A DNA stretch of 64,000 bases from Methanofollis fontis (lineage in GTDB: Archaea > Halobacteriota > Methanomicrobia > Methanomicrobiales > Methanofollaceae), in the NCBI RefSeq assembly GCF_004297185.1, contig NZ_PGCL01000002.1, forward strand, positions 496,001 to 560,000, in the 5' to 3' direction. The notes below the pieces were generated by a model. The model did no database searches, was not told where the DNA came from, and saw only the letters and a program-made list of their open reading frames with translations. A program made the position numbers and the translations under genes. Of the stretch, positions 32,926 to 43,980 are shown one piece after another. Position 1 is the stretch's first letter, and every line of letters starts with the position of its first letter.

Positions 32926-32972
32926 CAGACGGGATGGGCCATTCACGGCACACAATATATCCAACAATATAG

Positions 32973-32990
32973 AAATTATTTTATTTATGA
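32973..32990 (+). promoter_or_regulatory. Promoter of the tubulin-like operon
   Basis: The run aaattattttatttatga contains an AT-rich TATA box whose centre is about 25 bases before the ATG at 33007. No ribosome binding site intervenes, so the first gene probably has a leaderless mRNA. Confidence 0.5.
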
Positions 32991-33006: not shown

Positions 33007-33774
33007 ATGGTCCGGACCGAGAGGAATATACGGAAGACCGCAGTGGCGGGGAGTTCAGCCGGCGCCCTGTACAGATTGCTGATCCTGTGCATCGTGCTCG
33101 TCTGCCTGCCCGCAGGTGCGGCGGCGCTGCAGGTCGAAATCGATGGGGACGTCCCTGAAGAAGTGGTTGAGGGCGAACTCATCGACTTTACCATCACGCT
33201 CTCCGGGATCCCGCCGGCAGCAGATATGCTCCATCTCGACACCGACCTGCTCCGATTCGGCGACGTCCCGCTCTTTGTACCCGCAGAGGGGGGGAACGCC
33301 ACCAATACAACGCCCCTCAATCTCCCCGTCCCTCCGGGCAGCGGTCCGATGAGTGTTCGCCTTCAGGGTCAGGTGCCGGCGGTCACAGAGATCACGCAGT
33401 GCGGGGCGGTCGTGCTCACGACCTTCGACCCGAAACGGAGCGGTTATACCTATTATCGGGTCCGGTTCACCGATGACGACGGCAACACCCTGACCGAGAG
33501 CGACACCCGCCTCTTCTCGATCAGGGTCGAGACCATCGATACATTCAGGGACAAACTGAACAGGATCGACGATCCCTTCATGCGGTCCTATCTCCAGGAG
33601 ATCTTTGAGAAGGGGCTGGTGAATGAGGCAAACACCCTCGCCAACTATGAACTCGGGCGGGAAGATGGGATCCCGATCATCTGGGCGGCGGCCGGCATTG
33701 TGGTGACGGCGATCGCAGCACTGATCGCGGGGATCTGGATCGGCGGACGGGAGATCGGGGGTGGCGAAGAATGA
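33007..33774 (+). CDS. Exported single-anchor protein, first gene of the tubulin-like operon
   Basis: A 255-residue protein of unknown function. N-terminal signal peptide or signal anchor (about 22-40, LYRLLILCIVLVCLPAGAAA), an extracytoplasmic beta-rich domain (about 41-165; LQVEIDGDVPEEVVEGELIDFTITL with NATNTT glycosylation-type sites), a helical stretch (about 175-215), and a C-terminal membrane helix (about 223-247) with a short charged tail. The topology suggests a surface domain tethered to the membrane with its end in the cytoplasm. Its stop overlaps the ATG of the tubulin-like gene (ATGA), so translation is coupled. Confidence 0.75.
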   Translation: MVRTERNIRKTAVAGSSAGALYRLLILCIVLVCLPAGAAALQVEIDGDVPEEVVEGELIDFTITLSGIPPAADMLHLDTDLLRFGDVPLFVPAEGGNATNTTPLNLPVPPGSGPMSVRLQGQVPAVTEITQCGAVVLTTFDPKRSGYTYYRVRFTDDDGNTLTESDTRLFSIRVETIDTFRDKLNRIDDPFMRSYLQEIFEKGLVNEANTLANYELGREDGIPIIWAAAGIVVTAIAALIAGIWIGGREIGGGEE

Positions 33775-36700
33775 ATGGTGAACGGCGGTCAGGGGCATCA
33801 CTCCAGCTCCCCCTGGACCTGACGATCTGCGGGCTTGGCGGGTGCGGGAAAAAAATGGTCGGCGAAATCTGCAGAATGGAGTGGTTCCTACAGCACTATT
33901 CCGCCGCCAGCAGGCATCTGCGAATCTATACGATGGACACCGATGCCAACGAGCGATTCCAGGACGAAAAACAGCGCGACGAAGTGCTTGAACGTGTCGA
34001 AACACTCGGGGGACGGGGAAACGTCGAATATGACGCCCTCTATCTCCCCAACCTGGCGAATATCAGTCAGGTCTCGGACCTTGCCGGGGCGGAGATCGCT
34101 GAGAAGATCAAGGGGGCCAAGGCCGAACCGGGAGCAACCGTCTGGTGGCTGAACGATCCGTCCGAAGAGGGACTGCGTTTCGACGAACTCCGGACGATTG
34201 ATCCCTTCATTATCGACGATTTCGGGGGTGGGGTCCACCGGCGACGGGCGATCTCCAAGGCCATCCTGTACAAGGTGATCAACGAAGGGCAGGCGAGCGG
34301 TTTTCCGATGTTCTCCACGATGGGAACGACTGCCATCGTCGTCGGTCTCGGCGGCGGGACAGGGTCGGGGATGTTCATCGATCTCGCCCGGTATATCAGA
34401 GGTCAGCGCGGGGAAACAGCCCAGATATGGCTATTTGTCGTCCTCCCGACCACGATGGAGGGGGAGAAGGAGCAGCTGAACGCCGCCGTCGCCCTGACCG
34501 AACTCGAGTATCTCAACCAGAACGAGCGTCTCTTCAACTACATCGTGCTCACCTCACTGGGCCCCACCGGCTATAAGAAGGGCGAGGAGGCGCGTGTGGA
34601 GGTGCACGAGTTCGATGCGGTCTTCCCCTCCATATTCACCAACGTCCTCCACCTCGAAAAGGGCGACATCAACATCGGTGACGCAAAAAAACCCTTCACA
34701 TCGTTCATGTGTGCGGATGCGCACGTGATCACCTACCCGGTCGAGGAGCTCAGGAGTCTGAAGGGCAGCTACGAGCGGATCATCGGGGCGATGGAGGAGA
34801 TGACCGCACACAGAAAACGGCTGAACGGCGCTGTCGGCGACCTGATGGATGAGATCGGACTGAAGCGGGAGGCACCGCCAACACGGAGCGAGTTCGATTA
34901 CATAAAAAAGGAGTATGCCACCGTCGAAAAGGTCTGGAAAAATGAGATAGGCGGTTTGCTCCAGTACCAGACCACCGTCGCCGTCGAGTTCTTCATCGAG
35001 AACAATATTCCTGCCGAACTCAGACCCGATGCCGTCAGGACCTTTGACGACCTCGCCGATTTCATCGCAAAGGTGGCGACCTTCTCGCAGGCGGTGAAGG
35101 AAGAGGAGTTGAAGGACGAGATCGACCGGAAACTCTTCAGGCTCCTGCCCGAGACCTTCCACGCCCTCGAAACAACGGCCAGGATCATGAAACGGATTGC
35201 AGCGGTCGAGGACGAGGCCCTTCACACCGCACTCATGGAGACGCTGAAGGGGAGGGAGGAGATGGCCCCGTTCATCAGGGACATCGCCGCCGCCAGAAAG
35301 GAGGTGACGGAGGAGATCCGAACGCTGGAGGGTGCCCTTCAGGACAGGCGGGCGGAGACGGAAAAATTACAGGAACAACGCAATCGGATCGGCGAGAAGG
35401 CGGATCAGGTGCTTGCCGGCACAGACGTGATGCTCGACCAGTACGTCACCCTGAAGGAAAAGGCACACACCGCCGAATCGGCAGAACCGGAGATTCAGCA
35501 GGCGATCAATACCGCTATCGTAGACCTCAGGGAAAAACGGGTCAGAGGGGGCGACCGGAACACCTGGCTCGCCGCCGCCGGGGTGCCAGATATCCAGCGC
35601 GAAATTTCGGCGCTCTCCCACGAGATCGACGAGGACCTCGACGGCCTGAACGAACTCGTCGAGACGATCGCCCTCTTTTCCTTTTATGATATGCGCATCC
35701 GGCGGATCGATGCCGGCGGTATCGGGTCGAAGATTGTGGGGATCATCAACAAACGACCGGCACGGGAACGGAAAAAATTCGAAGCGCTCAAACGCGAGAG
35801 CGAGGAGTCGATCAAGGCAAATGCCCGCTACTGGAACCTCGTCATCAATGCGCCCTTCGAACTGGAGATGCCCGGAGATTTCCTGAGCCGCAGCCTGCAC
35901 AGACGGGCGGAGGATATCAGGAGACGGATCCTCGACGAGGTGTTCGGCACCGTCGATGCCGGGGACGCCGGGGAACTGGCGACCATCTTCGAGGAGGCGG
36001 AACGGGGCCGGATCCGAAATACACTGAGGGAGCGGCTGATCGACGCCCTGCTCGGGCAGGAGGAGTATGCAGAGCGGTATGCAGCAGTGGAGAAGGAATC
36101 CGGCGACCTTGCTGCACGGCTGAAGGAGCGCTCCTCCTACAAAAACGCCCTGGAGAGGACCGAGGACGTGGCGGACGAGACCTTCCCCTCCCGCAGGGAG
36201 AGCAACCGGAACGCCCGGATCTTCCTGGCGACTCTTGTCGAGATCTCCGAACACGGCAAATCACGCGGCAAAACAACCAAAGGACTGTATACCACACGTT
36301 TTGGCGAGATCAATCCGCGGATCCTCTCCCTTCTCCACGAGGGATCATCGCTTCGGGACCTGGACTGGGACGAGAACGGGCAGCGAGAACTCGATAAACT
36401 TCTCTCAGAGGTCGCAACCGCCTACAAGCACCTCCTTGACAACTACAAGCTCGGCATCCATAACCTGCTGATCCCGATCACCGCCACCGAGCGCTGGAAC
36501 TTCGGCAAGGTCGGTCTGGTGATCGCCTCGCCCTCCGAGTATCTCTCCCGGGCCATCACCAGCTCCCGGGTCGGCGACGAGATGAGACGGGATATCAACG
36601 ACACCCTGGCCCTGCGGAACATCAATGATTCCCGTCTGGTCACCCATCAATATGCCCGACCATGGGAGATCACCCTGACGTTCGTTGCCGCCGCGGGGTT

Positions 36701-36944
36701 CCTGGACAACATATCCCCCCTCATCGCAGGCGGCGGATACTGGGAGATCTATGAGAGAAACCGGGACAACATCCTCCATCATGTCATCAGGATGCATGAC
36801 GGCGAATACATCACCAGAACCAGACTGATGGACCTCAGGGAAGCCGGACAACTCTCCAACCGCGAGAAAAAGGGAGAAAATGTATCTGAATCGGTGCTCG
36901 GCCTCTACACTGTCAGGGGGATCAGGGAGGCACTGCAGAGATGA
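33771..36944 (+). CDS. Giant tubulin/FtsZ-superfamily GTPase-like protein
   Basis: A 1057-residue protein. The N-terminal 320 residues show a tubulin/FtsZ nucleotide-binding fold: a glycine loop GLGGCGKKMV (21-30), an acidic MDTDAN strand end (55-60), the tubulin signature GLGGGTGSGMF (192-202), VVLPTTMEGE (223-232), and LNQNERLFNYIVL (248-260) like the T6 region. A long helical part (about 330-700) with heptad-like Lys/Glu patterns forms coiled coils, followed by a large C-terminal region (about 700-1057) without a domain I recognise. It resembles Tubulin_2-type proteins, not FtsZ or CetZ, which are near 370-400 residues. ATGA overlaps join it to both neighbours. Assembly into filaments is plausible but unproven. 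Confidence 0.8.
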   Translation: MNGERRSGASLQLPLDLTICGLGGCGKKMVGEICRMEWFLQHYSAASRHLRIYTMDTDANERFQDEKQRDEVLERVETLGGRGNVEYDALYLPNLANISQVSDLAGAEIAEKIKGAKAEPGATVWWLNDPSEEGLRFDELRTIDPFIIDDFGGGVHRRRAISKAILYKVINEGQASGFPMFSTMGTTAIVVGLGGGTGSGMFIDLARYIRGQRGETAQIWLFVVLPTTMEGEKEQLNAAVALTELEYLNQNERLFNYIVLTSLGPTGYKKGEEARVEVHEFDAVFPSIFTNVLHLEKGDINIGDAKKPFTSFMCADAHVITYPVEELRSLKGSYERIIGAMEEMTAHRKRLNGAVGDLMDEIGLKREAPPTRSEFDYIKKEYATVEKVWKNEIGGLLQYQTTVAVEFFIENNIPAELRPDAVRTFDDLADFIAKVATFSQAVKEEELKDEIDRKLFRLLPETFHALETTARIMKRIAAVEDEALHTALMETLKGREEMAPFIRDIAAARKEVTEEIRTLEGALQDRRAETEKLQEQRNRIGEKADQVLAGTDVMLDQYVTLKEKAHTAESAEPEIQQAINTAIVDLREKRVRGGDRNTWLAAAGVPDIQREISALSHEIDEDLDGLNELVETIALFSFYDMRIRRIDAGGIGSKIVGIINKRPARERKKFEALKRESEESIKANARYWNLVINAPFELEMPGDFLSRSLHRRAEDIRRRILDEVFGTVDAGDAGELATIFEEAERGRIRNTLRERLIDALLGQEEYAERYAAVEKESGDLAARLKERSSYKNALERTEDVADETFPSRRESNRNARIFLATLVEISEHGKSRGKTTKGLYTTRFGEINPRILSLLHEGSSLRDLDWDENGQRELDKLLSEVATAYKHLLDNYKLGIHNLLIPITATERWNFGKVGLVIASPSEYLSRAITSSRVGDEMRRDINDTLALRNINDSRLVTHQYARPWEITLTFVAAAGFLDNISPLIAGGGYWEIYERNRDNILHHVIRMHDGEYITRTRLMDLREAGQLSNREKKGENVSESVLGLYTVRGIREALQR

Positions 36945-38359
36945 GGGTGAGGGACCGGGAGCGTCTGGCCCTTGAAGGGGGAATCGCAGCCACCGGTCTC
37001 GCCCTCTCGATCGCCCTGCTGCTGGTGGTGCCGGATGCAGTGTCCGGACCCCTGCATCCATTCCTCTCCTACCCGATCGGCTTTTTCATCGGATTTCTGG
37101 TCCCGGGCGTCTGCGGACTCATGATAGAAGGGCAGGCGAGAAAACACGGGACGAACCTGCTTGCCCTTATCACGCCCATCGCCGCCGTCTATCTCATCCG
37201 TTCAGCTGATCCGGCTATTCCAGCCGTTGCCGCAGGGATCCTTGCAGCACTGACCGCAACAGCTCTCACCCTCGTCCAGAACCGCTTTGATACCCTGGCT
37301 GAATCAATCCGCCTGATGTTCATGCTGCTCTTCGCAACATGTGCCATCTCCACCATTCTGCTGATCCTGTCCAGTCCCCCCCTCCTGGTGGCGGGCGGGT
37401 GCGCCCTCCTCTTCATTATGGCGCTGTTTGTACGCAGGATGGGACCACAGATCCGCCCCTCCGAGATCTTCATGATCGGTCCGACGGGTTCGGGCAAGAC
37501 GCTGCTCATGGTCGCCCTCTACACCTATATTGTGGGCGAATACGCCGGGACCAGACGGAGCGTGATCCTCAGCGGAGAGGGGCAGGAGGAGACGATGCGG
37601 ATAGAGCACCTCATCTCAGGTCTCGAGAGCGGACACCTGCCACCCCCCACCCGGGGCACCGACCTTGCGATATATCGGTTTTCCGGAAAAAAATACGGGG
37701 TCATCCCGGTAGAGACAGGCATCGTCGATTATGCGGGATCTCATGCCGCCTCGATCGATGATTCCGCCGGCTTTGCTGCCGCCGTCGAGACCATCGCAGG
37801 GGGAATCGGGACCGAACCGGCAGAGATCATCGCCCATATCGGTGGGTTCGACTATATGAAACAGCTGAAAGAACGGCACGCATCAGATATTGCCGGGATC
37901 ATGGACGCTGTCGTCACCGCCTGCATCTTCCGGAGGGCAGAGACCGCAACCAGAATCCTGTTTCTCATCGACGGTGATGATATCGTGCACTTCCATACCA
38001 CCGGGAGGCAGCGACTGACATCCCTCTTCGGATACTATACACAGGTGATGGACCTCCTGGGCAGTGAGCGGGCGTACGGTTTCGTCGTCACAAAGGCCGA
38101 CAGGATTCGCAATATACGTGATATCGAAGAGCGATCGGATGAAGCGCTCCGGATCGAACAGGAAATCTATGAGATACTCCTGCCGATCAGCACCTTCCAC
38201 GAGATCCATAACCGTGCCCTCACCATCCCGATCCATTTCTATGCGGTCAGCGTGAACGCCATGCTTGAGCCCGAGGATCAGGAGAGGGAGGAGGGAGAGA
38301 CAGGGTTCCGGCAGGTCTATCCCTGGGGCATCGGGGAGGTGGCGAGGTTCGGGATCTGA
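36941..38359 (+). CDS. Polytopic membrane protein with TRAFAC-like GTPase domain
   Basis: A 472-residue protein. The first 165 residues hold about six membrane helices. The cytoplasmic domain has G1 GPTGSGKT (180-187), a HLPPPTRGT segment (232-240) in the place of the switch I Thr, G3 DYAG (263-266), and G4 TKAD (384-387), a set typical of TRAFAC GTPases; RILFLIDGDD (338-347) is a further acidic strand. The L-x-x-G-x-L-P-P-P-T motif recalls GTPases of bacterial multi-gene conflict systems. It is the last gene of the three-gene operon, coupled to the tubulin-like gene by an ATGA overlap. Probably the membrane-seated switch of the system; inferred. Confidence 0.75.
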   Translation: MRVRDRERLALEGGIAATGLALSIALLLVVPDAVSGPLHPFLSYPIGFFIGFLVPGVCGLMIEGQARKHGTNLLALITPIAAVYLIRSADPAIPAVAAGILAALTATALTLVQNRFDTLAESIRLMFMLLFATCAISTILLILSSPPLLVAGGCALLFIMALFVRRMGPQIRPSEIFMIGPTGSGKTLLMVALYTYIVGEYAGTRRSVILSGEGQEETMRIEHLISGLESGHLPPPTRGTDLAIYRFSGKKYGVIPVETGIVDYAGSHAASIDDSAGFAAAVETIAGGIGTEPAEIIAHIGGFDYMKQLKERHASDIAGIMDAVVTACIFRRAETATRILFLIDGDDIVHFHTTGRQRLTSLFGYYTQVMDLLGSERAYGFVVTKADRIRNIRDIEERSDEALRIEQEIYEILLPISTFHEIHNRALTIPIHFYAVSVNAMLEPEDQEREEGETGFRQVYPWGIGEVARFGI

Positions 38360-39349: not shown

Positions 39350-40375
39350 TCATCCGTCCCTTCTTTTTTTCCAGATTTCCACTAGTCCAAAACTCCCGGT
39401 AAGCATCATGTCTCCATATGCAGCCGCCTGCCATGCATCAGGGAGGAGACGACGCCGGTTCGGTCCGGTGACGGCAACCGGCGTCTGTCCAACCGCTTCA
39501 TACATGGCGGCGCCGTGCCCACCGTCATCGAAGACCTCCCGGTTCGTGAGCGTTCCCTCCTGAAGACGGCGGATGAGCCCCTTCAGTGTCGGTGTATCGA
39601 GTGCGGCGGTGTGGTGCTCAAACATCCCGCAGACGCAGGTGCCACGGAGGGTGAAACAGAGGGTGTGACCGTTGCCGGCATTCACAATGGTAATGCCGCC
39701 TCCTGCCCGTTCTGCAACCCAGGGATCCAGGAGGGCGCCGATCGCCGCCGCCGGACCGGTGTCGGTGACGAGCGCTCCGGGGGCGCCGGAGAGCACTGCC
39801 TGCATCCTGGTCATCGAGGGATGGGGGGGGTCGGGGGCGAGGGCATAGAGGTCCCGGTCTCCGGACTCGAGGAGATCCCTGAAGACTTCGAAGCGGTGGA
39901 GGCGGTTGGAGACCTTCGGCGAGTATCCATGGTCCTGCACCGCCACCGCCACCTGTTCAGGATAGGTGACGCCGAACAGTGAGAGGGCCGTCCGGATCTC
40001 CTCCTCCATATAGTCGCCGGTCCGCACCCGCATCGCACCTGCAGCCGGTTCGTCCGTGACCCTGACGCCCATCCTCTGCACCCGTTCAGGATCGTCGTGG
40101 ATGGTCGGTGCGGCCTCAGGAGACGCCGTCACCGAAAGACCGGCACCGATCGCCGCCATCACCGCAGAGACGCTTCCACCGCCGCCCATGCACGTCCCCT
40201 CCAGGTGGACGGGCCGACCGACCTGTGCGGCGCTCCGGATCGCATTCCCGACGATGACGGTCGGGGAGGGGAGGACGAGCCTGAAGGAGTTTTCTGCCGG
40301 GATATCGGGATCATAGATCAGGATGTCCTGTGTTCCCCTCCCGACGTCCACGGCAAGAATGCGGCGGTCGCTCAT
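39350..40375 (-). CDS. DUF1786 family protein (ASKHA-like fold)
   Basis: A 341-residue protein starting ILAVDVGRGTQDILIYD (about 6-22), an ASKHA-type phosphate-1 loop, with EGTCMGGGGSVSAVMAA (59-75), TDTGPAAAIGALLDP and GGGITIVNAGNGHTLCF (about 227-243). Matches DUF1786, an archaeal and bacterial family of unknown role. Its ATG overlaps the stop of nrdD (ATGA), so it is the third gene of a glutaredoxin-nrdD-DUF1786 operon, which hints at a part in ribonucleotide reductase or radical-enzyme function. Confidence 0.82.
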   Translation of the reverse strand: MSDRRILAVDVGRGTQDILIYDPDIPAENSFRLVLPSPTVIVGNAIRSAAQVGRPVHLEGTCMGGGGSVSAVMAAIGAGLSVTASPEAAPTIHDDPERVQRMGVRVTDEPAAGAMRVRTGDYMEEEIRTALSLFGVTYPEQVAVAVQDHGYSPKVSNRLHRFEVFRDLLESGDRDLYALAPDPPHPSMTRMQAVLSGAPGALVTDTGPAAAIGALLDPWVAERAGGGITIVNAGNGHTLCFTLRGTCVCGMFEHHTAALDTPTLKGLIRRLQEGTLTNREVFDDGGHGAAMYEAVGQTPVAVTGPNRRRLLPDAWQAAAYGDMMLTGSFGLVEIWKKRRDG

Positions 40376-43300
40376 GTCCGTACACCGGCCGGGGTGTCGG
40401 TCTCCAGATGGCCGGGCACCTTGCGGCCGCCCCGATAGTCCTTGAAGCGCCTGAGGGAGACCGTGAGGTCTCGGGTGAAGGCGAAGTAGCCAATCTGGGT
40501 CTTTCTGCAGAGGTTCATCGCCATGTCATAGAGCCCCCTGGGATCGGGTCTGGCTTCGCCGAGCCAGATATGGAAGATGTTGCCACCATCGACGATCGGG
40601 AAGAAGACATGCTCGATCTCCATCCGCTTTGTGAGGGGGACGTCGGCGCCCGGCGCCACATGGGTGCCGTTGGTGTAATACACCGGCAGATCCCGGGTGG
40701 TGCCGCAGTCGGCGACTGCTGTCTCGACATCGCCCTTCATCACGCTGAGGGCCGCATCCCTGAAGCGCTCGTCGATCATGTCGGCGACAGAGAAACGCTG
40801 ACCGGTCGTCTCGGCCGGTGTGCGCGCCAGCGCGATCGTCATGCCGGTGCGGGCGCTGATATCACGGGCATACAGCTCCAGCTCGGTCATCGCCCGCACC
40901 GCCAGCCTGAACGAATCTTTTGATTCGTGGAGCTGACTGCCGGTATGGTGCTGGACCATCTCATTGACGCCGACCACACCGATCGTGTAGACGAGGCCCT
41001 CGAGGTCGACCGCCACCTCACCCCGCTCCCCGGTGTTGGGATCCTTCGGGCGCTGCATGGCAAAGGGCATCCGCCCATTGGTGCGGATCGTCTCCATCCA
41101 GCGCCGCTTGATCGTGAACACCTCGACGGCCACATCCATCAATGCCTTCAACTCAGCAAACAGGCGCTGGTCGTCACCTTCAGCCCTGAACGACGCCCTC
41201 GGACAGTTGATCGAGACCACCTGCCACGAACCCATCGAGAAATGCCTGCCGTCCCTGAAATAGAGTTTGTCCTCAAACTCCGAGTCCTTGTCGAAGGTTG
41301 CGGAAAATTGATACGCACAGCATTGATAGCACGAAATCCCGTTCCCTGCCCCCCGATAGGGCGGGAGCTGGTTGTCGTAGTAGGGGGTGCCGAACTTGGA
41401 GGCGAGCTCAAAGGTGAGGAGGTAAAGGTCCTGGTAGGTGGGGAGGTCGGGGTGCTGGCGGTTGAACTCCTCGTCCTCGTCCATGAAGTCGGGTTCGATG
41501 GATATCTCGGGTTTCGGGAAGGAGAAGGGTTTGCCCCAGGCGTCGCCCTCGAGCATCACCTCCATCATTGCCCGGAAGAGCAGGCGGACCTCCCGTTCGA
41601 ACTCCCCGTAGGTCCGTTTCGGTGCCTGCGTCCCGTCCCAGACCTTCCCCTTGTAGACACAGGGCTTGTCCCGCCAGAGGCTCGGGACGCCGGGAGAGAG
41701 CTGCACCGAGGAGAAGACCAGCTGACCGCCACGCGCCACCATCATCTGGGTCATCTCATAGACGAACATCTGCATCAGCTGCCTGATCTCCTCATACGCC
41801 ATCCCCTCAAAGAAGGGGGCAATGAAGGTGAGGAAGTTGTAATATCCCTGCCCGCCGGCGAAGTTGGTCTGGGCGCTTCCGAGGGCCTTGACCGCATGGA
41901 GGACCGCAACCTCTGGACGCTTTGCCGGTCCGGCCACGCTCGCCTTCGTGCCGTTGCCGTCCGGCATCAGGCCGTAGTAAAAGAAGTAACGGAGGTCCCA
42001 ATCTTGACAGTTATGCACGAGAAGCCCATCGGAGGCGAAAAATGTATGACTTTCCTCTGAACCGTCCCCCTCAAGAAAGAGATCATAGACCCATTCACCG
42101 GAAGGAACCGCCTCATCGACGGTAACGACCTCCTCTCCCCGGTGTGCACGCCCCATCGGTTGTACAGCGGCACAGAACCGATCGAGGTGATCCTGCCGCT
42201 CATCCAGGAAGCGTGCAATTCGGGCAAAGGTCCTGATGTTTGCAGAACCATTGAACTGGATGCGGTAGAGTGTCGTGCGAGCATCATCCGAATAGAGATC
42301 GAGAATATGCGACCGGATCCCGAACGAAGAGAGCAGGAGGGAGATTTCCTGCCTGAGGGCGGGCGAGGCGGTGGTGTAATTGACAATACAATCAGATTTC
42401 TCCGGTCTGTAATACACAGAACCGTCGCCGGTGAAGAGTGCCGACAGGAACTCTCTCTGGAGGGCATCGTCAAGGTGCCAGACAATCCAGGGGAGGCGCT
42501 TGTTTTCAGCTCCCTCCGGTACGGCAAAGACATATCTGAAGAGGAGCCAGCCCAGTTTCCCGCCGAAATAGACCTGCATCGCACGGTTGTGCTCAACACG
42601 GGCGCCATAGATCTCGGTCACATCAGGTGTGCCGCCGGAGAGGGTCGCATAGCCTCCGAGCGCCGTTCCGACATCGTTGATGATCGCCCCCGACTGATGA
42701 TTCTCGGTGATGGCGAGGTTGTAGGTGCTGCCAGGGACAACATCATAGTTCCCTTCCGATACAAAGAATCCGAGAAGACGGCAGAGGGCAGGGGTCACCG
42801 GCATGACAGCAGGGAGTTCGTGCTCGCTGCCGGCGACGCCGATCCTGAGATCTCCATACTCCTCAATACCATAGTGTTCGGAAAAGGCCCTGAAGAGCGT
42901 GAGAGGCATGCTCCCGCGGGTGAACCAGTCCTTTTTATGTGCGACGCCGAGGGCACGGGATATGCCGGCAAAACTTCCCTCCATCTCCGAGATCCGCTCG
43001 AACAACGGGCGAGCGCCCCGAACCCAGACCGTATCCAGGAGGTCTGCAGGCACCGATCGGGAGAATTCCCGGATCAGGTCGATCGAGGAGACCGACGGCC
43101 CCCGGATCTGTTGATCTCTATCCGTCCCGTAGAGCACGTCACCCGCACCGATATCGGCGGCCTTTTTGATCTGCATCGCCCCATCGACCAGGACCGGGAT
43201 CCGGTGCTCGCCGGTAACACGAATGCTCTTTCCGGTGGCGGTACGGATACAGAGCATCTCACCCTCCGCAACAGGACGCCGGGTGACCTTGCATACCCGC

Positions 43301-43980
43301 CGATATCCGCCCGGGGTGAGGGCCTCAAGAGCGTCCGGGCGATATTCCTCCCCCTCAAGAGGCAGTTCGTCAAGTCGGATTGTCCGATGACGCCCTGAAT
43401 GACGGAAAGGAACGATTGTGCCGCCGTCCAGACAGAACGGGCGTGAACCAAAGTATTCGAGGTCATGGATATGGAGGTCGCCCGCCAGGTGGCGGTCTGC
43501 GAGGTCGGGCGGGAGCTGGAGGAGGTACTGCTCCTTGCTGATCTTGTCGGCCTTCTTTTTATGGGAGGTCTCGGCGTTCTCCTGGAGGTTGGCGTTGTCG
43601 TGGGCCTCAAAACCCCGACCCACATCAATGAGGTGGGCGTCAAAGACAGGGGTGCCGACGCGTGTGCAGACATTCCTGTACTCGACCATCCCGCGCTCAA
43701 GGAAGGTCATGTTCACGATCTCACGGATGAGCGGACCGGAGAGGGAGCGCAGACCCAGTTTCAGGATCCGCTCCTCCACGGTCCTGGCGATCTCCTCGGA
43801 CTCCTCGCGGCTGGCACCGGAATACCCATAGAACTCCTCAACAAGACGGGTCTCCTTCTCGATCTGGGCGACGATCTTGGAGCGGTCCCACTCAAAGATA
43901 TGCCCCTCCGATGAACGAACCTTCGGCATCGGGGGGAGAAAAACGCCGTCGAGGGTCGCCTGTTTGCTATGCCGCTCCAC
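40372..43980 (-). CDS. nrdD: Anaerobic (class III) ribonucleoside-triphosphate reductase with intein
   Basis: A 1202-residue precursor; removing the intein (residues 183-657) leaves 727 residues, normal for NrdD. It begins with an ATP-cone-like domain (about 18-110: KVRSSEGHIFEWDRSKI). The core shows DLHIHDLEYFGSRPF, CYQCCAYQFS, and SINCPRASFRAEGDD, with FFPIVDGGNIFHIWLGE near the end. The usual C-terminal zinc ribbon and RVxGY glycyl-radical motif are not visible: the protein stops soon after QIGYFAFTRDLTVSLRRF. It makes dNTPs under anoxia. Upstream is a glutaredoxin gene two bases away; no activase gene (nrdG) is in the window. Confidence 0.93.
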   Translation of the reverse strand: MERHSKQATLDGVFLPPMPKVRSSEGHIFEWDRSKIVAQIEKETRLVEEFYGYSGASREESEEIARTVEERILKLGLRSLSGPLIREIVNMTFLERGMVEYRNVCTRVGTPVFDAHLIDVGRGFEAHDNANLQENAETSHKKKADKISKEQYLLQLPPDLADRHLAGDLHIHDLEYFGSRPFCLDGGTIVPFRHSGRHRTIRLDELPLEGEEYRPDALEALTPGGYRRVCKVTRRPVAEGEMLCIRTATGKSIRVTGEHRIPVLVDGAMQIKKAADIGAGDVLYGTDRDQQIRGPSVSSIDLIREFSRSVPADLLDTVWVRGARPLFERISEMEGSFAGISRALGVAHKKDWFTRGSMPLTLFRAFSEHYGIEEYGDLRIGVAGSEHELPAVMPVTPALCRLLGFFVSEGNYDVVPGSTYNLAITENHQSGAIINDVGTALGGYATLSGGTPDVTEIYGARVEHNRAMQVYFGGKLGWLLFRYVFAVPEGAENKRLPWIVWHLDDALQREFLSALFTGDGSVYYRPEKSDCIVNYTTASPALRQEISLLLSSFGIRSHILDLYSDDARTTLYRIQFNGSANIRTFARIARFLDERQDHLDRFCAAVQPMGRAHRGEEVVTVDEAVPSGEWVYDLFLEGDGSEESHTFFASDGLLVHNCQDWDLRYFFYYGLMPDGNGTKASVAGPAKRPEVAVLHAVKALGSAQTNFAGGQGYYNFLTFIAPFFEGMAYEEIRQLMQMFVYEMTQMMVARGGQLVFSSVQLSPGVPSLWRDKPCVYKGKVWDGTQAPKRTYGEFEREVRLLFRAMMEVMLEGDAWGKPFSFPKPEISIEPDFMDEDEEFNRQHPDLPTYQDLYLLTFELASKFGTPYYDNQLPPYRGAGNGISCYQCCAYQFSATFDKDSEFEDKLYFRDGRHFSMGSWQVVSINCPRASFRAEGDDQRLFAELKALMDVAVEVFTIKRRWMETIRTNGRMPFAMQRPKDPNTGERGEVAVDLEGLVYTIGVVGVNEMVQHHTGSQLHESKDSFRLAVRAMTELELYARDISARTGMTIALARTPAETTGQRFSVADMIDERFRDAALSVMKGDVETAVADCGTTRDLPVYYTNGTHVAPGADVPLTKRMEIEHVFFPIVDGGNIFHIWLGEARPDPRGLYDMAMNLCRKTQIGYFAFTRDLTVSLRRFKDYRGGRKVPGHLETDTPAGVRT
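42010..43434 (-). mobile_element. Intein with LAGLIDADG homing endonuclease inside NrdD
   Basis: A 475-residue intein (NrdD residues 183-657). It starts at Cys183 (CLDGGTIV) after the extein GSRPF, has block B TGEHRIPV (256-263), endonuclease blocks LCRLLGFFVSEG (399-410) and EFLSALFTGDG (510-520), and ends LLVHN (653-657) followed by Cys658, the +1 nucleophile. All splicing residues (Cys1, TxxH, His-Asn, Cys+1) are present, so it should splice. Both LAGLIDADG motifs keep their acidic residue (Glu409, Asp519), so the nuclease may be active. Confidence 0.93.

Follow-up and report, generated by a model that had tools for sequence, protein, structure and literature searches.

The FtsZ-like 1 (FtsZl1) family of tubulin relatives was described by Makarova and Koonin in 2010, and a role in membrane remodelling was proposed for it from independent context evidence (PMC2875224). 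Its C-terminal domain was originally described as mostly alpha-helical; neither the T6-H7 region nor any C-terminal similarity to FtsZ could be identified, and with half of the FtsZ fold seemingly missing the filament-forming ability of the family could not be judged at that time (PMC2875224). The partner GTPase of FtsZl1 is a divergent P-loop protein, membrane-associated in archaea, and a vWA-domain protein is encoded in the majority, not all, of the FtsZl1 operons (PMC2875224). Later papers only cite this description, and the literature searched, a scope leaving out most subscription journals, contained no experimental study of FtsZl1. In the bacterial DO-GTPase systems, a second described group, DO-GTPases bound to the membrane occur with PEGA domains and a tubulin carrying a coiled coil (Kaur et al. 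2020, PMC7159879).

The operon presented here lies within a 64,000-nucleotide stretch of the Methanofollis fontis genome (contig NZ_PGCL01000002.1, positions 496,001 to 560,000), referred to below as the window, and represents the FtsZl1 operon in its archaeal form. Its three genes, A1, T1, and G1, and their features are as follows (window positions):

32950..32989, + strand: A+T-rich stretch 18-57 bases before the first ATG, read directly; candidate archaeal promoter region
33007..33774, + strand: A1, ORF of 255 aa; exported, membrane-anchored Ig-like protein
33771..36944, + strand: T1, ORF of 1057 aa; FtsZ-like 1 (Tubulin_2) protein
33810..34856, + strand: T1 residues 14-362, GTP-binding half of the tubulin fold, from the secondary structure of the model and the range of the structural alignment; ends in the helix entering the coiled coil, boundary approximate
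34350..34370, + strand: GGGTGSG nucleotide-binding loop of T1, residues 194-200, from the ORF and the family alignment
34857..36278, + strand: T1 residues about 363-836, helical/coiled-coil block, predicted insert within the tubulin fold, from the model and structural alignment
36279..36941, + strand: T1 residues about 837-1057, C-terminal part, predicted from the model and alignments to supply the second FtsZ/tubulin domain
36941..38359, + strand: G1, ORF of 472 aa; membrane GTPase of the DO-GTPase2 superfamily by profile, hydrophobic helices N-terminal, then the GTPase domain
37478..37501, + strand: P-loop GPTGSGKT of G1, residues 180-187, from sequence and alignment
37727..37741, + strand: DYAGS of G1, residues 263-267 (DYxGE in relatives, the glutamate being replaced here), from alignments
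38090..38101, + strand: TKAD guanine-specificity motif of G1, residues 384-387, from sequence and alignment

As an earlier note on this DNA had it, the genes are coupled by ATGA overlaps, which are four bases long and located at 33771-33774 (A1/T1) and 36941-36944 (T1/G1). The three-gene set is not a chance arrangement, since the A-T-G order with the same or similar overlaps recurs in dozens of genomes, and within Methanofollis the dN/dS values range from 0.07 to 0.46 (0.07-0.27 for T, 0.18-0.46 for A and G). The operon is under purifying selection, strongest on T. Scans for sigma-70 promoters, a model not made for archaeal promoters, and for terminators gave counts at chance level. PADLOC and NCBIfam searches of the operon returned only weak P-loop or coiled-coil matches, and relatives of its proteins were not found by a sequence search of the PDB.

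The earlier note held that the locus matches no known system, a statement superseded by the 2010 description of FtsZl1. Like the members of that family, T1 is about 1050 aa long, begins with an FtsZ-like GTP-binding region carrying the GGGTG(S/T)G motif, continues into a long coiled coil followed by a conserved C-terminal domain, and is encoded next to a P-loop GTPase, here a membrane protein. The profile of the T family matches that of the bacterial FtsZl1 members with an hhalign probability of 99.5% (E 2.6e-23, template columns 17-599). The window operon differs from the described ones in that it contains neither a vWA protein nor a kinase, and its first gene encodes an exported Ig-like protein. 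The absence of a vWA gene from the operon and its near flanks does not exclude membership of FtsZl1, since this component is frequent but not universal. What is new here is the predicted split tubulin fold, the link to DO-GTPases, the minimal operon, and the loss of the GTPase glutamate in this genus.

The tubulin/FtsZ signatures proposed for T1 are well founded: the protein matches Pfam Tubulin_2 (PF13809) with E 6e-14, its GGGTGSG is invariant or nearly so among 29 homologues, and the "G-loop at 21-30" noted earlier is the conserved first loop, GLGGCGKK. In the alignment the nucleotide loops are invariant from Methanofollis through Halobacteria, as would be expected of an assembling GTPase. 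An AlphaFold model of T1 built with the 29 homologues as input (mean pLDDT 85.2, pTM 0.66) shows helices at residues 324-830 followed by an alpha/beta domain. When Foldseek alone was used, tubulins and FtsZ ranked at the top of the matches to this model, canonical tubulins first, with partial overlap only; the match to both ends of T1 is visible only with a second aligner. In that DALI-like alignment (VIA) the best match is CetZ of Methanosaeta, with 312 of 342 residues aligned and Z 23.1, and several FtsZ structures align over 280-291 of about 300 residues, Z for FtsZ and CetZ being about 20-23. These alignments span T1 from residue 14 to residues 976-1001 and place the last FtsZ strand close to residue 976, beyond the coiled coil. 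On this ground both FtsZ domains are predicted to be present in T1, split by a helical insert of ~470 residues with approximate boundaries. This fold is a prediction by a program that has seen many tubulins; independent support for the second domain comes from the C-terminal block, which is strictly conserved, W965, N980, G989, Y994, H1004, G1011, and R1016 being invariant across methanogens, Archaeoglobi, and Halobacteria. A lack of the tubulin fold in residues 1-320, named earlier as an observation that would speak against a tubulin relative, is indicated neither by the model nor by the CetZ/FtsZ alignment. Whereas the 2010 account described a C-terminal domain without similarity to FtsZ, here this domain is predicted to complete the tubulin fold, and its placement behind the insert offers an explanation of why T6-H7 and the C-terminal similarity were missed. 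With the seemingly missing half located in the model, the question of filament formation becomes directly testable. T1 is not a CetZ or FtsZ proper, as these are compact proteins of 350-400 aa with an uninterrupted tubulin fold, whereas the fold of the 1057-aa T1 is broken by about 470 residues. Their fold (Z about 20-23) is shared by the two outer parts of T1; CetZ and FtsZ have about a third of its length, no helical block between the domains, and different partners.

G1 is a membrane GTPase, as anticipated from its GPTGSGKT (residues 180-187), DYAG (263-266), and TKAD (384-387) motifs and the hydrophobic N-terminal half of the protein. A further feature attributed to it, a "P-P-x-T" switch, is not conserved in the family, only T or N being kept. 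The DO-GTPase2 family (PF19993) is matched by 13 of the 18 G1 relatives, the best with 3.6e-6, G1 itself falling under the Pfam cut-off. The profile of the G1 family matches that of five bacterial sequences from loci found with PF19993 (hhalign 97.4%, E 1.4e-11, 208 columns) and that of the GAP1-linked DO-GTPases (96.6%, E 6e-10, 236 columns), whereas the control P-loop families (ABC, AAA, ATP synthase) match over only 14-20 columns, which correspond to the P-loop itself. As nothing above the cut-off was obtained when the phylum was scanned broadly with PF19993, the DO-GTPase link rests on profiles, and at that level G1, embedded in the membrane, is related to the double-GTPases of bacteria (DO-GTPase2). 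The conserved Walker B glutamate of this family is absent from G1 (DYAGS). According to the alignments, from which this comparison was made after a regular-expression motif census had been discarded for catching wrong stretches in some rows, every aligned Methanofollis G copy has S, R, or K at this position, and the aligned relatives, which come from Geoglobus and from methanogens, have E. With the DYxGE glutamate replaced throughout the aligned copies of the genus, GTP hydrolysis by G1 may be slow or lacking. Through its GTPase the archaeal system is tied to the bacterial double-GTPase systems, so that findings on either would help to understand its counterpart. The resemblance to the DO-GTPase/GAP1-N2 systems extends to a tubulin with a coiled coil, membrane helices, and, in the relatives of the operon, PEGA or Ig-type parts on the outside; the differences are the lack of GAP1 and of any FNIII or vWA component, the archaeal host, and the replaced glutamate of the Methanofollis G1. 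There is no GAP1 gene beside G1, and the window operon is not a member of the GAP1-N2 systems.

A1 was earlier taken for an exported, membrane-tethered protein, and its AlphaFold model (mean pLDDT 84.9) and family alignment agree with this. A signal helix (residues about 17-33) is followed by a beta-sandwich (40-174), three helices, and a C-terminal membrane helix (224-246). The sandwich is Ig-like, many Ig-like or beta-sandwich matches being tied at Z 6-7 and none specific.

The A-T-G order is kept in Methanomicrobiales, Methanosarcinales, ANME-2, and Archaeoglobi (Geoglobus), and the genes are adjacent, mostly overlapping, in Geoglobus and in nearly every methanogen locus holding all three. 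The co-occurrence of the three genes in other genomes, on the absence of which the grouping would have failed, is thus conserved. In Halobacteria T is found with a membrane GTPase of 4-6 helices. In most relatives a fourth gene, X, encoding a protein with one membrane helix, follows A-T-G; X matched no Pfam family, nor did it match the GAP1 profiles in a comparison of shallow alignments with few sequences on the GAP1 side. Operons of Methanomicrobiales contain a fifth gene, for a PEGA-repeat protein. In Geoglobus (L086:4107-10508) A-T-G is accompanied by genes for a 548-aa membrane protein and a 1157-aa surface protein with PKD/InlB repeats, the latter replacing the PEGA protein. The same operon is present in Methanosarcina, a genus with laboratory genetics. 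In the six relatives examined the Methanofollis operon consists of A-T-G only (the contig of L068 ends within the first gene), and this three-gene version, possibly the smallest form in which the system occurs naturally, may be well suited to reconstitution.

The distribution of the locus is patchy. T is present in 24 of the 98 good genomes of the order Methanomicrobiales and in nine of the 12 Methanofollis genomes, that of M. fontis included, and is absent from the remaining three; in both sister genomes examined for the empty site, the PAP2 gene adjoins the response regulator gene directly. From this distribution and the clean empty sites it follows that the locus is not essential housekeeping. 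Several members of the genus share the order PAP2, A, T, G, response regulator, DUF1786, and ribonucleotide reductase, the regulator being undetected in two of them. The locus is vertically inherited and syntenic within the genus. Broadly congruent trees were obtained for A, T, and G, and in them the Methanofollis clade, together with one further genome (L069), groups with the Methanosarcinales type, apart from the usual type of its own order. As L069 still has X, this gene was probably lost in Methanofollis, or else never acquired.

From gene linkage, predicted folds and topology, motif conservation, and inheritance, the operon is best explained, with a probability of about 0.5, as a minimal archaeal FtsZl1 operon for a membrane-spanning, GTP-driven scaffold serving the maintenance or remodelling of the cell envelope. 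T1 would bind GTP and polymerise through its FtsZ-like body into filaments beneath the membrane, from which the inserted coiled-coil arms would project at regular intervals. The membrane-bound G1 would dock on these arms or on T1 itself, and its GTPase cycle could be the switch setting where or when T1 assembles. A1, in the same membrane, would expose its Ig-like domain outside and a short acidic tail inside, and may tie the assembly to the S-layer or report its state. An outward link to the envelope is also suggested by X and the big surface proteins of the larger relatives, with PEGA repeats or, in Geoglobus, PKD/InlB repeats. A broader and distinctly more tentative proposal is that FtsZl1 proteins in general are split tubulins with the coiled coil inserted between the GTPase and C-terminal domains, close to helix H7 and the catalytic T7 loop, so that the position of the arm could report the nucleotide state; together with the membrane double-GTPase and the Ig-like outer protein they might then form a transmembrane, signal-coupled archaeal tubulin cytoskeleton unlike any described filament system.

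Patchiness and clean empty sites are also what may be expected of a conflict or stress module, in which the Ig protein would sense an attack on the envelope, the double-GTPase-like switch would fire, and the tubulin-like protein would assemble to block the invader or kill the cell. Such working was proposed for bacterial systems of the GAP1-N2 DO-GTPase type that include a tubulin (Kaur et al. 2020, PMC7159879); the tubulin there has a coiled coil, and PEGA domains and DO-GTPases bound to the membrane are further parts. The homology of G1 to DO-GTPase2, set against the mere 14-20 columns matched by the control families, and a weak match of G1 to PADLOC mad8 (3e-4) point the same way. However, GAP1-N2 was found in none of 27 FtsZl1-bearing genomes, archaeal and bacterial (a set to which the window genome does not belong), X is not GAP1 as far as the shallow alignments tell, and the operon has no effector domain. 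Its neighbours are housekeeping genes, for CO dehydrogenase, an aminotransferase, a PAP2 phosphatase, and ribonucleotide reductase, with no adjacent defence genes, and vertical inheritance with fixed synteny, as well as the lack of T on the viral contigs searched, also argues against such a role, which is unlikely. Of the link to conflict-system GTPases raised in the earlier note, the homology of G1 stands, while the defence reading is weak, PADLOC having matched no system. The MADS defence system in particular was rejected: the full mad gene set is absent, A1 and T1 have no match to it, and the mad8 match of G1 is the only one.

CetZ controls cell shape in Haloferax, and FtsZ-type systems in general need membrane anchors. 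T1, the best structural match of which is a CetZ (Z 23.1), might accordingly be an accessory CetZ-like cytoskeleton for shape or division, its filaments shaping the cell with A1 and G1 as mere anchors. This match is not specific, since rows differing from CetZ by no more than Z 1 count as ties, and FtsZ structures come soon after. Absence from sister species with conserved synteny argues against a core role, and a GTPase, an exported Ig protein, X, and PEGA surface proteins amount to more than an anchor needs, so that this explanation, too, is improbable. Even less probable is a device for transport, secretion, or surface assembly, in which the GTPases would deliver or position surface proteins (A1, PEGA repeats) with no bending of the membrane. 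Large secreted repeat proteins do recur in the longer operons, and a case for transport, based on bacterial contexts, was made by reviewer 1 of the 2010 paper (PMC2875224), but the window operon includes no large surface protein and is linked to neither a translocase nor a channel component.

Besides the operon of the window, the M. fontis genome carries a second one, A2-T2-G2-X2-PEGA2, followed by T3, a third and very divergent Tubulin_2 gene (L034:6975-19361; C1:714974-727360). It is located downstream of V/A-type ATP synthase genes, belongs to the order's own type, and is nearest to an operon of Methanoculleus sp. (62% identity of T). X is found in this genome only in the second operon and has thus not simply moved elsewhere to serve T1. 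Two genus members without T (L198 and L199) have ORFs of about 400 aa whose match to X is confined to its C-terminal third, which holds the membrane helix and the outside part. A contig labelled Bacteroidota (L057) carries the methanogen five-gene operon with a T very close to that of a Methanoculleus (L059), and is probably mis-binned; in the draft genome of Methanogenium cariaci (L081) frame breaks, which probably stem from sequencing errors, interrupt every one of A, T, G, X, and the PEGA gene. It is also worth mentioning that the ribonucleotide reductase gene of the window (40372-43980) contains an intein-like insert of about 475 aa, which is polymorphic within the genus, as the 727-aa ribonucleotide reductase of a sister genome (L203) is without it.
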